Below are positions 15,598 to 62,337 of a DNA stretch of 64,000 nucleotides, in pieces. This stretch comes from Qipengyuania gaetbuli (GTDB taxonomy: Bacteria > Pseudomonadota > Alphaproteobacteria > Sphingomonadales > Sphingomonadaceae). The notes under the pieces were generated by a model. The model made no database searches. It was not told the origin of the DNA and saw only the letters and a list, made by a program, of their open reading frames with translations. Where the stretch lies: the NCBI RefSeq assembly GCF_009827315.1, contig NZ_WTYF01000004.1, positions 1,364,001-1,428,000 on the forward strand, read 5' to 3'. A program made the translations under genes and the position numbers. Numbering within the stretch: position 1 is the first letter of the stretch; every line of letters starts with the position of its first letter.

Positions 15598-15656
15598 GAC
15601 CCGTCCTCAAAGCCAAGCATGGCAGCGCCCGGAGCGGACGCCGTTACAACCCATGC

Positions 15657-15847
15657 CCCCTCTGTCGGGTGACCTGAGAGACTGGCCTGCAAATGAGCAG
15701 GTTTACCCCTTCGGTGGCGCATCGCGACTGGCACGAAGCGCGCTTTCCAGAGTGTCGATGGCAGCGCACGGTCCTGAGGCCTGAGAGTTTCCGGGGCGGT
15801 TGCTCCTTCGGCGCTGGCGGGTGTCCCCGGACCAGCTCTCCCATGCG
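15657..15847 (-). promoter_or_regulatory. Tandem glycine riboswitch upstream of gcvT
   Basis: Read on the minus strand, this leader contains two copies of the glycine-aptamer core. Aptamer 1 (about 15845-15777) has GGGAGAGC, then GCCGAAGGAGCAA, and ends AAACTCTCAGGC. Aptamer 2 (about 15730-15657) has GCCACCGAAGGGGTAAAC, then CTCTCAGG and finally GACAGAGGG. These are the conserved blocks of the known gcvT-type riboswitch, in the usual two-aptamer arrangement with a linker of about 45 bases. It ends about 60 bases before the gcvT start and should switch on glycine cleavage when glycine is plentiful. The region 15598-15938 holds nothing else I can identify. Confidence 0.93.
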
Positions 15848-15938
15848 CGCCTGCCGCAGAATCGCTCCCGTGGCCGACGGGAAACGCCCTGCGCGATAAG
15901 CGGGGCGCGGTCAATTCCCTTGGGTAGCCGAAATGCGC

Positions 15939-59867: not shown

Positions 59868-60004
59868 CGGGCGTTTTCCTACCGTCAGTCTACTTGCTAT
59901 CGCCGCCCTGATGGCGCCGAAAAATCTCTCCTCCAACGCTTCCGTGTGGGCGTCGTCTGGGGTCCGGGATTTTCTCCTGTGGACTGTGTTCCAAGCGTTC
60001 CATC

Positions 60005-60162
60005 CTGTGGGACCGGTCGCAGTTGAAACCAACATCGCTCCAACATAAGAGATGGCCCACAGCGGCTGTCGGCGGAGAGGCGTTCCTGCGGAGGTTAGGA
60101 ACGGGCGCCCCGGCAGCCTCATCGGCCCCCGCCTTCCTGGGGGCGAAGATACAGGAAGGATG
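60005..60162 (+). promoter_or_regulatory. Structured 5' leader with anti-Shine-Dalgarno hairpin, candidate riboswitch
   Basis: The 303-base gap 59868-60170 contains, in its last 160 bases, consecutive stems. A: CTGTGGG (60005-60011) with CCCACAG (60056-60062). B: GGCTGTCGG (60064-60072) with CCGGCAGCC (60110-60118), nine pairs including one G-U. B1, nested in B: CGTTCCT (60081-60087) with AGGAACG (60097-60103). C: GCCCCC (60125-60130) with GGGGGC (60139-60144). The loop of C contains CCTTCCT (60132-60138), exactly complementary to the ribosome-binding site AGGAAGG (60153-60159) of the downstream gene. It matches no riboswitch consensus I can recall (SAM-I, II, IV, V, SAH or cobalamin). Bases 59868-60004 hold nothing I can identify. 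Confidence 0.55.
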
Positions 60163-60170
60163 CTCGCGCC

Positions 60171-61433
60171 ATGAGCGACGTCACCAAGATCAACGGCCGC
60201 CCCCTGAAACCCAGCACGCTGATGATGGGCCACGGTTACGACCCCGTGCTGTCCGAAGGCAGCCTCAAGCAGCCGCTGTTCCTCACCAGCACCTTTGCCT
60301 TCCCCAGCGCCGCCGACGGCAAGCGCCATTTCGAAGGCATCACCGGCAAGCGTCCGGGCGGTGCGGACGGCCTCGTCTATTCGCGCTTCAACGCGCCGAA
60401 CCAGGAAATCCTCGAAGACCGCCTGTCCATCTGGGACAGCGCGGAAGACGCCCTGTCCTTCTCCAGCGGCATGTCCGCGATCTGCGTCCTGCTGCTGACC
60501 TATGCCAGCCAAGGCGACGTGATCGTCCATTCGGGACCGCTCTATGCCGCGACCGAAGGCTTCGTCGCCAAATGGCTGAGCAAGTTCGGCGTCAGCTACA
60601 TCGACTTCCCGGCCGGCGCGACGCGCGAAGAGATCGACGCCGTGCTGGAACAGGGCAAGGCCAAGGCCGCCGAACAGGGCGGCAAGGTCTGCATGGTCTA
60701 CCTCGAAAGCCCGGGCAATCCGACCAATGCGCTGGTCGACGTCCAAGCCGTGCGCGCCGCGGTCGACGCAGCGGGGCTGGAATGCCCGATCGCGATCGAC
60801 AACACCTTCCTCGGCCCGCTGTGGCAGCGCCCGCTCGAACATGGTGCGGACATCGTGGTCTATTCGCTGACCAAGTACGTCGGTGGCCATTCGGACCTCG
60901 TCGCCGGCAGCATCGCCGGGGCCAAGAAGTGGATGGACCCGGTGCGCATGCTCCGCAACACGATGGGCGGCATCTGCGATCCGAACACGGCATGGATGCT
61001 CTGCCGCAGCCTCGAAACCGTCGAACTGCGCATGCAGCGGGCGGGCGAGAATGCGGAAAAGGTCTGCGCCTTCCTTGCCCAGCACCCCAAGGTCGAAGGC
61101 CTCGGCTATCTTGGCATGATCAAGGATGCGCGCCAGCAGGACATCTACGACCGCCATTGCCTCGGCGCAGGCTCGACCTTCTCGCTGCTGCTCAAGGGCG
61201 GCGAGGCTGAATGCTTCCGCTTCCTCGACAGCCTCAAGATCGCCAAGCTGGCGGTCAGCCTAGGCGGCACCGAGACGCTGGCCAGCCACCCGGCCTCGAT
61301 GACGCACCTCTCGGTGCCGGACGAGCGCAAGGCGGCGCTGGGCATCGGCGACAACCTGATCCGCATCTCGATCGGGATCGAGGACGCGGACGACCTCATC
61401 GCCGACTTCGAACAGGCGCTGGAACAGGTCTGA
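60171..61433 (+). CDS. Cystathionine gamma-synthase family PLP enzyme
   Basis: This 420-residue Cys/Met-metabolism PLP enzyme carries its cofactor lysine at K235 in YSLTKYVGGHSDL. Other family blocks are VYSRFNAPNQEILEDRLS (tetramer and PLP contacts), SSGMSAI, ESPGNPTN and TLASHPASMTH. Members include cystathionine gamma-synthase, cystathionine gamma-lyase, O-acyl-homoserine sulfhydrylase and methionine gamma-lyase, and the sequence does not separate them. ATG 60171 has AGGAAGG 11 bases upstream, which is the element contacted by the leader hairpin. An ATP-grasp gene follows two bases after the stop. Confidence 0.88.
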   Translation: MSDVTKINGRPLKPSTLMMGHGYDPVLSEGSLKQPLFLTSTFAFPSAADGKRHFEGITGKRPGGADGLVYSRFNAPNQEILEDRLSIWDSAEDALSFSSGMSAICVLLLTYASQGDVIVHSGPLYAATEGFVAKWLSKFGVSYIDFPAGATREEIDAVLEQGKAKAAEQGGKVCMVYLESPGNPTNALVDVQAVRAAVDAAGLECPIAIDNTFLGPLWQRPLEHGADIVVYSLTKYVGGHSDLVAGSIAGAKKWMDPVRMLRNTMGGICDPNTAWMLCRSLETVELRMQRAGENAEKVCAFLAQHPKVEGLGYLGMIKDARQQDIYDRHCLGAGSTFSLLLKGGEAECFRFLDSLKIAKLAVSLGGTETLASHPASMTHLSVPDERKAALGIGDNLIRISIGIEDADDLIADFEQALEQV

Positions 61434-61434
61434 A

Positions 61435-62337
61435 GTGACGACAAGGATCGGCTTCCTCGCCTGCGCCGACACGCTGCCTCCGCCTGAAGGCGCAGCGGAC
61501 GAACGGCGCGGGGACGCTTTCGAGCACGATCTCGAGACCGCGGCCCTGCGCCCGGCATTCGCTGCGACGGGACTGGAGCTGGTGGAGATCGACTGGCGCG
61601 CACCGCTGGGTGAGTTCGAGGGTATGGCCTTGGTCATGCTCGGCACGGCCTGGGACTATCAGGACCATCCGGACGAGTTCCTCGACAGGCTGGAAGCCCT
61701 GGCCGGCATGGGTATTGCAGTCTGCAATCCGCCGGACGTCGTGCGGTGGAATGCGGACAAGCGCTATCTTCGCGAGCTGGAAGAGCGCGGCGTGACCACC
61801 GTACCCACGCTCTGGCTCGACGATCTCAACCATGCGGACGCGTTGGAGGCGATGGACGACTTCGCCTGCGAGCGCATCGTGGTCAAGCGGCAGGTCGGCG
61901 CAGGAGGCCTCGGGCAGCACAGCTTCTCGCGCGCCCAGCTGCCCGCAGAGGGCTGGCGCATGGGTCGCGCCTGCATGGTCCAGCCGTTCCTGTCGAGCGT
62001 TGTCGAAGAGGGCGAATACACCTTCCTCTTCATCGATGGCGCCTTCAGCCACGGCGTGCTGAAGCGGGCGGCGGAGGGCGAATACCGCATCCAGTCGCTC
62101 TATGGCGGCTACGAATGCGATTTCGAGCCCGATGCCGCCGATCTCGCCAGGGCACAATCGGTGGTCGCTTCGCTGCCGTTCGACCGGCCGCTATATTGCC
62201 GCATCGACATGGCGCGCCTGCCTTCAGGTGACCTTGCGGTGATGGAAGCCGAAATGATCGAGCCCTACCTCTACCCGCAGCAGGGGCCGGAACTCGGCAA
62301 ACGGATGGCCGAGGCCATTCTCGGCAGGCTGGGTTAG
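61435..62337 (+). CDS. ATP-grasp domain ligase
   Basis: This 300-residue protein of the RimK/glutathione-synthetase/DcsG-like ATP-grasp group shows IVVKRQVGAGGLGQHSF with the ATP lysine and glycine-rich loop (residues about 147-163), EEGEYTFLFIDGAFSHGVLK, and CRIDMARL...EAEMIEPYL, which supplies the metal-binding acidic residues. It should couple a carboxylate to an amine or thiol with ATP. The GTG start at 61435 is two bases behind the cystathionine-gamma-synthase-family gene. The pair is probably one operon under the structured leader. A sulfur-amino-acid-containing product is a tempting guess, without direct evidence. Confidence 0.8.
   Translation: MTTRIGFLACADTLPPPEGAADERRGDAFEHDLETAALRPAFAATGLELVEIDWRAPLGEFEGMALVMLGTAWDYQDHPDEFLDRLEALAGMGIAVCNPPDVVRWNADKRYLRELEERGVTTVPTLWLDDLNHADALEAMDDFACERIVVKRQVGAGGLGQHSFSRAQLPAEGWRMGRACMVQPFLSSVVEEGEYTFLFIDGAFSHGVLKRAAEGEYRIQSLYGGYECDFEPDAADLARAQSVVASLPFDRPLYCRIDMARLPSGDLAVMEAEMIEPYLYPQQGPELGKRMAEAILGRLG

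Follow-up and report, generated by a model that had tools for sequence, protein, structure and literature searches.

A conserved leader RNA with an anti-Shine-Dalgarno-like loop precedes a cystathionine gamma-synthase-family gene in Sphingomonadaceae

INTRODUCTION

SAM-II (SAM_alpha) riboswitches, which belong to methionine genes of Alphaproteobacteria, control translation through a pseudoknot near the Shine-Dalgarno (SD) sequence. In riboswitches of the preQ1-I type, an H-type pseudoknot can arise from pairing of a hairpin loop with a stretch further 3' that overlaps the SD, and the loops of guanidine-II riboswitches are of the ACGR type. The guanidine-II (mini-ykkC) RNA consists of two hairpins whose loops were proposed to kiss (PMC7544219). 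The metXZ element is a predicted RNA found in betaproteobacteria before metX or metZ and is reported to be of the terminator-antiterminator type (PMC4239095).

The leader studied here precedes a cystathionine gamma-synthase-family gene of Qipengyuania gaetbuli, within a window (the whole stretch of DNA that was analyzed) of 64,000 nucleotides, to which all coordinates refer. Like SAM-II, it is a short alphaproteobacterial leader before a gene of Cys/Met metabolism, but it has a two-arm layout and different conserved loops. It shares with guanidine-II two hairpins with a possible loop-loop contact, although its loops are not of the ACGR type. As in preQ1-I, a hairpin loop (L3, below) is able to pair with the downstream SD; unlike preQ1-I, the leader has an additional conserved arm, P1-P2, located 5' of that hairpin. 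It is further set apart from all three by the lack of an Rfam match. The metXZ element is likewise a predicted RNA 5' of a gene, its genes being those of the methionine pathway; the present leader differs in having no terminator, a different gene, and a different bacterial class as its host, a distinction drawn from the description of metXZ and not from its sequence.

Scans with Rfam 15, which includes the SAM, SAH, cobalamin, and glycine classes, gave no match at 60005-60175, nor did the SAM-II model (RF00521) match in those scans. At a relaxed threshold two matches of 15 to 16 bits appeared, far below their gathering scores, and in 19 divergent relatives nothing overlapped the motif at an E value of ≤1. 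An earlier reading of this locus, made from its letters and here called the sequence-only reading, had judged the leader to be unlike the known SAM, SAH, and cobalamin riboswitches, and the scans bear this out. A literature search over titles and the openings of abstracts, which reached few subscription papers, found no published description; an earlier mention is possible. The leader belongs to a new family of structured cis-regulatory leaders. Elsewhere in the window, at 15652-15853 on the reverse strand, there is a tandem glycine riboswitch, seen as two RF00504 matches of 57.7 and 45.8 bits.

RESULTS

The leader before the cystathionine gamma-synthase-family gene is a real feature, and its elements follow the same order across the family: P1, an internal loop (GGAGANGC/GGGNGCC), P2 capped by GCGGAGGUU, P3 capped by GCCUUCCU, and the SD. 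All of them lie on the forward strand of the window. P1 is formed by 60064-60072 and 60110-60118; its sequence is variable and mostly paired across leaders. The two strands of the internal loop, GGAGANG (60074-60080) and GGNG with a closing CC (60104-60109), are conserved columns, the first two G residues of the former pairing with 60108-60109. P2 (60081-60087 with 60097-60103) is capped by L2, a 9-nt loop (GCGGAGGTT, 60088-60096) that is near-invariant among 98 sequences. P3 (60125-60130 with 60139-60144) carries L3, an anti-SD-like loop (GCCTTCCT, 60131-60138) that is likewise near-invariant. The SD AGGAAGG (60153-60159) ends 11 nt 5' of the ATG at 60171 and is the exact 7-base complement of CCTTCCT at 60132-60138, as the sequence-only reading had pointed out.

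That reading had also counted four stems. P1, P2, and P3 are conserved helices with covariation; the first and outermost stem (about 60005-60011 with 60056-60062) is not conserved. The nearest relatives (L002 and L003) retain it, but by our own reading of the sequences it is absent from others such as L004 to L007, and 60005-60062 was ruled out as part of the leader. Because this stem overlaps a TTGAAA/-10-like arrangement common to many relatives, it is probably mostly untranscribed.

The fold was assessed with 98 family-wide leaders, comprising 27 of the 60 genus loci and 71 others from the family (locus L145 was not in the set). In their alignment, which was fitted to the structure and so favors it in pair statistics, 94.5% of cells were standard pairs. 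Two-sided changes were present in 15 of the 19 pairs, and 500 shuffles did not once equal the observed value in any of five measures. Branch events were counted on a tree built from 82 sequences of the protein encoded downstream, the other 16 of the 98 having too little gene sequence. Both partners changed with a standard pair kept in 97 events, compared with 1 to 11 when partners were shifted by one or two columns and 11 to 17 in five partner shuffles. Pair-breaking events on the same tree numbered 66, versus 31 to 85 for shifted and 204 to 217 for shuffled partners. P2 had 27 double events over its seven pairs; its six inner pairs showed 4 breaks, and its outermost pair showed 9 that were uncompensated. 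The six pairs of P3 had 16 double events and 2 breaks. The four outer P1 pairs of the alignment contributed 43 double events, yet also 48 of the 66 breaks; in the P1 of the window, covariation and the most breaks fall on the inner four pairs. These compensatory changes support the fold and make the leader a conserved structured 5' domain with covariation, as is asked of a riboswitch.

Folding energy was unremarkable for the leader (z = -1.17, with 31 of 200 shuffles as good) and for a trimmed version of it (z = -0.31, with 75 of 200 as good). Since folding energy alone does no better than shuffles, the case rests on comparison among relatives. The sequence-only reading had accepted that its proposal would fall if stems and loops lacked covariation or conservation, or if a known Rfam class matched; covariation was found, and an Rfam match was not.

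The orthologous gene, preceded by the same leader core (allowing up to 4 substitutions), was found in 60 of 60 Qipengyuania genomes searched, the window's own included; the downstream gene of L220, from Q. gaetbuli, shows 99% protein identity. A model, R1, was made from 46 non-redundant genus leaders out of 59 distinct ones, sequences more than 95% alike having been dropped. At an E value of ≤0.01, R1 gave matches in 71 of the 199 family genomes sampled, or about 67 once four genomes with weak matches and no gene downstream (G064, G086, G101, and G187) were removed; in G193, G241, and G245 the gene lies directly 3' of the match. An order-wide sample of 296 genomes gave matches in 94; all but one weak match came from the same family, and at least 8 of the 94 have only weak, gene-less matches. 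A family-wide model, R2, matched 4 of 385 genomes in a class sample and 11 of 398 in a phylum sample at an E value of ≤0.001. Three R2 matches outside the family were weak (23.4 to 24.9 bits), and the two that were examined, L212 and L368, had no gene nearby. Because weak matches are lost to the stricter filters of the large searches, some distant relatives may have escaped notice. A pattern scan of viral contigs and a search of plasmids found no leader. The hosts are mostly genera of the Erythrobacteraceae, together with some Novosphingobium, Sphingorhabdus, Parasphingopyxis, Blastomonas, and Sphingomonas and unclassified metagenome-assembled genomes.

The gene is more widespread than the leader. 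At an E value of ≤1e-120 it is present in 157 of the 199 family genomes, against about 67 with the leader, and more than half of the gene-bearing genomes gave no match to the leader model. When 40 upstream regions of relatives were inspected by eye and by pattern, 39 were without the leader and the fortieth, L211, had both loops; L207, counted among the 39, has a distant L2-like word with two mismatches. A tree of 116 gene sequences, rooted at its midpoint and weak at its deep nodes, shows genes with and without the leader interleaved, which suggests several losses or transfers of the leader. In four relatives without the leader (L180, L182, L185, and L192) a -10 box resembling TACACT or TACGAT is found 7 nt 5' of the ATG, a position that suggests that the gene has leaderless transcripts in relatives in which the RNA is missing.

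Where the leader occurs, it accompanies one gene. A search of 90 sources with R1 found it immediately 5' of the same gene in 72, and the other 18 sources gave 22 weak matches in which the gene was not downstream. A gene-blind pattern scan of genome contigs yielded at least 120 named loci, partly overlapping with the 72, and among the matches listed the gene followed the leader in 120 of 120, starting 77 to 186 nt past the beginning of the L2 pattern. Among these matches, copies before other genes were ruled out; by our own reading, the gene-less weak matches are nearly all CCCCCGCCTTCGCGGGGG-type REP-like hairpins. Such hairpins occur in some sphingomonad genomes (L147, L148, L149, and L156, among others) and resemble P3, which accounts for the false model matches. 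Bit scores overlap at the margin, the best gene-less match scoring 33.6 (L154) and the weakest gene-linked match 32.2 (L145). The matches L366 to L368 (24.9 to 28.9 bits) were rejected as having neither the gene nor L2, and L212 was rejected as having no gene match worth counting.

The leader-linked gene (60171-61433, forward strand) belongs to the cystathionine gamma-synthase family NF005455/PRK07049 (653.9 bits; cutoff, 504) and matches the Pfam domain Cys_Met_Meta_PP (PF01053). The same genome encodes a clear methionine gamma-lyase (722.7 bits; cutoff, 666) and a MetZ-like protein just below the TIGR01325 cutoff (501 versus 510 bits); the leader gene is a third cystathionine gamma-synthase paralog, its predicted function being one of family resemblance. 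Next to it, an ATP-grasp gene (61435-62337) starts 1 nt past its stop codon and scores 119.9 bits against the D-cycloserine synthetase DcsG (cutoff, 360); of 80 named loci, many of whose sequences are incomplete, 20 contained a relative of this gene.

Upstream of the leader, a putative promoter (60023-60049, forward strand) consists of a TTGAAA -35 box (60023-60028) and a CATAAG -10-like box (60044-60049) with a spacer of 15, and many relatives have a similar arrangement at a similar distance. We infer a transcript start near 60056-60058 from this arrangement, since a strict consensus scan found no sigma-70 promoter in the 60023-60049 region. Overlapping the -35 box is a palindromic operator-like site, GGTCGCAGTTGAAACC (60015-60030, forward strand), one mismatch away from GGTTNCANNTGNAACC. 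The exact palindrome GGTTNCANNTGNAACC occurs at 35 places in 29 of 119 family genomes, compared with 3 for the reversed control, and at 0 in the window's own genome; in relatives it precedes hpd, phhA, hglS, sdaA, maiA, and the leader gene. At 30 loci around exact sites we found hpd (8), phenylalanine 4-monooxygenase (3), L-serine ammonia-lyase (2), prolyl-oligopeptidase-like genes (2), and hglS, maiA, and the leader gene (1 each), with 7 lacking an assignment; the catabolic gene names come from family scans, except at L363, where the name comes from resemblance only. Five of the 30 (L342, L346, L351, L352, and L354) have GGTTCCACGTG-type sites, which we presume to be parS-like, and a ParA-like gene lies beside L346. 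In Sphingomonadaceae, GGTTNCANNTGNAACC thus appears to be an operator of an amino acid catabolism regulon. Because the palindrome at the leader gene's promoter also precedes amino acid catabolism genes, it suggests a role for the leader gene in amino acid catabolism rather than in methionine synthesis. As a third paralog with an operator-like palindrome common to catabolic genes, it is not clearly a methionine biosynthesis gene. The sequence-only reading had suggested that the leader could be an undescribed metabolite-sensing RNA of sulfur amino acid metabolism; neither Rfam nor the literature searched offers a match.

Among 197 distinct leaders, a set from which L146 to L163 and L335 onward were excluded and in which duplicates were merged, L3 was GCCTTCCT in 188, GCCTCCCT in 8, and GCCTGCCT in 1 (L135). 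A full AGGAAGG precedes the start in 127 of the 197; a few of the 70 that lack it come from false starts picked inside the leader (e.g., L073, L076, L108, L250, L278, L294, and L297). In 929 kb, both strands counted, with 120 named loci among the matches listed, AGGAAGG-N4-11-ATG occurred 68 times at the leader gene and 60 times elsewhere, whereas plain AGGA-N4-11-ATG occurred 115 and 782 times, respectively; the AGGAAGG counts carry no correction for shared inheritance. This motif count replaced a more favorable count based on open reading frames, in which AGGAAGG preceded 33 of 70 leader genes and 1 of 519 others, with a crude choice of starts (AGGA was present at just 71 of the 519 controls). 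The 7-bp complementarity of L3 and the SD is exact, conserved, and enriched at the leader gene. Some complementarity to any SD is to be expected, since L3 resembles the 16S anti-SD. Eight relatives (L125, L128, L135, L139, L142, L260, L261, and L263) apparently have a third hairpin inserted between P3 and the start codon and use another SD, such as AGGGAGG or AGGAGGG, which retains part of the complementarity to L3.

The L3-SD duplex has a calculated energy of -13.4 kcal/mol. In the 52 of the 98 leaders with both GCCTTCCT and AGGAAGG, P3 and the alternative L3:SD hairpin had medians of -15.05 and -14.85; the two lay within 3 kcal/mol of each other in 43, and the SD hairpin was the lower in 20. 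P3 and the SD are joined by a linker of 7 to 9 nt in 44 of the 52. The near-equal energies and the length of the linker would suit a two-hairpin switch and an H-type pseudoknot alike. L3 has a second potential partner, since GGAGGU of L2 (GGAGGT at 60090-60095, forward strand) is able to pair with GCCUUC of L3 (60131-60136) at -7.3 kcal/mol. In the variant GCCTCCCT, pairing with L2 is stronger (-10.2) and pairing with the SD is weaker (-8.9), which hints that the L2-L3 contact may be kept where SD pairing is not; GCCTGCCT, from L135, would weaken both. Because L2 and L3 hardly vary, covariation is silent on both pairings.

DISCUSSION

We put at roughly two in three the probability that the leader is a structured RNA of about 115 nt that acts in cis to control how the PLP-enzyme gene 3' of it is translated. 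The leader RNA probably turns translation of the gene on or off in response to a signal. Most likely, the P3 loop has two alternative positions in this switch, one over the SD and one away from it, the latter possibly through contact with the P2 loop. With the switch OFF, L3 would pair with the SD and hide the ribosome site, either in an H-type pseudoknot that keeps P3 or in a hairpin that replaces it. In the ON state, the P1-P2 arm, stabilized by the signal, would keep L3 off the SD, perhaps through a kissing contact between GGAGGU of L2 and GCCUUC of L3. The sequence-only reading had proposed translational control by loop-SD pairing. That pairing is conserved and enriched at the gene; it may be one of two states, since L3 is also able to pair with the P2 loop. 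The most likely signal would be a small molecule with a link to the enzyme, for instance methionine or some other sulfur amino acid, and because the enzyme looks catabolic, a ligand would be expected to switch expression on.

More tentatively, and with the odds somewhat against it, the leader may be a new class of metabolite-sensing riboswitch, found in Sphingomonadaceae and there mainly in Erythrobacteraceae, in which a loop swap turns on a PLP enzyme of sulfur amino acid catabolism. The ligand-bound P1-P2 arm would present its GGAGGU loop as an SD mimic, capture the anti-SD-like GCCUUCCU of P3, and so free the true SD.

Since only one gene was ever associated with the leader, a protein regulator fits this association as well as a ligand does, and the enzyme itself or another RNA-binding protein could sit on the P1-P2 arm and decide whether L3 covers the SD. 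The strict association with one gene (120 of 120 loci among the matches listed), the occurrence of strong matches one per genome, and near-invariant loops that would suit a protein site are consistent with such autoregulation. We nonetheless consider it unlikely, as many relatives have the gene without the leader RNA and the Pfam matches in the enzyme are to the PLP-enzyme domain only.

A leader peptide is far less probable. An upstream open reading frame (uORF) in P2, ATG-CGN-NNN-TGC-GGA-GGT-TAG (M-R-x-C-G-G-stop), could act as an attenuator through ribosome pausing at the Cys codon, and 68 of the 98 sequences do have an in-frame start within 60 nt 5' of the GGAGG of L2, with the peptide MRSCGG recurring. 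However, the base that makes the ATG is free (T in 50, G in 29, A in 17, and C in 2 of the 98), 30 of the 98 have no in-frame canonical start, the window's own leader among them, and TGC is TGA in 3. The third positions of GGA and GGT barely vary, the amino acid at codon 3 changes together with the opposite strand of P2, and by our own reading the frame is shifted in one clade (L130, L134, L164, L165, and L169). A conserved, translated uORF with constraint at the codon level was not found in this set, and leader-peptide attenuation was rejected.

A constitutive or thermometer-like structure that sequesters the SD without a specific signal appears just as improbable: the nearly equal energies of P3 and the SD hairpin would permit a temperature response, but the near-invariant L2 and the conserved internal loop, both far from the SD, would be left unexplained. 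Transcription attenuation was rejected, the sole terminator-like site in 59870-60250 being at 59956-59968, 5' of the leader, with none after P3.

The leader is an orphan cis-regulatory RNA that is well delimited, shows strong compensatory evolution, and has one target gene. Should it bind a metabolite, the leader would represent a new class of riboswitch, possibly one for a sulfur amino acid, and the capture of an anti-SD loop by an SD-mimic loop, if true, would be an unusual switching mechanism. The leader also offers a handle on the PRK07049 family of enzymes, which is without an assigned function.
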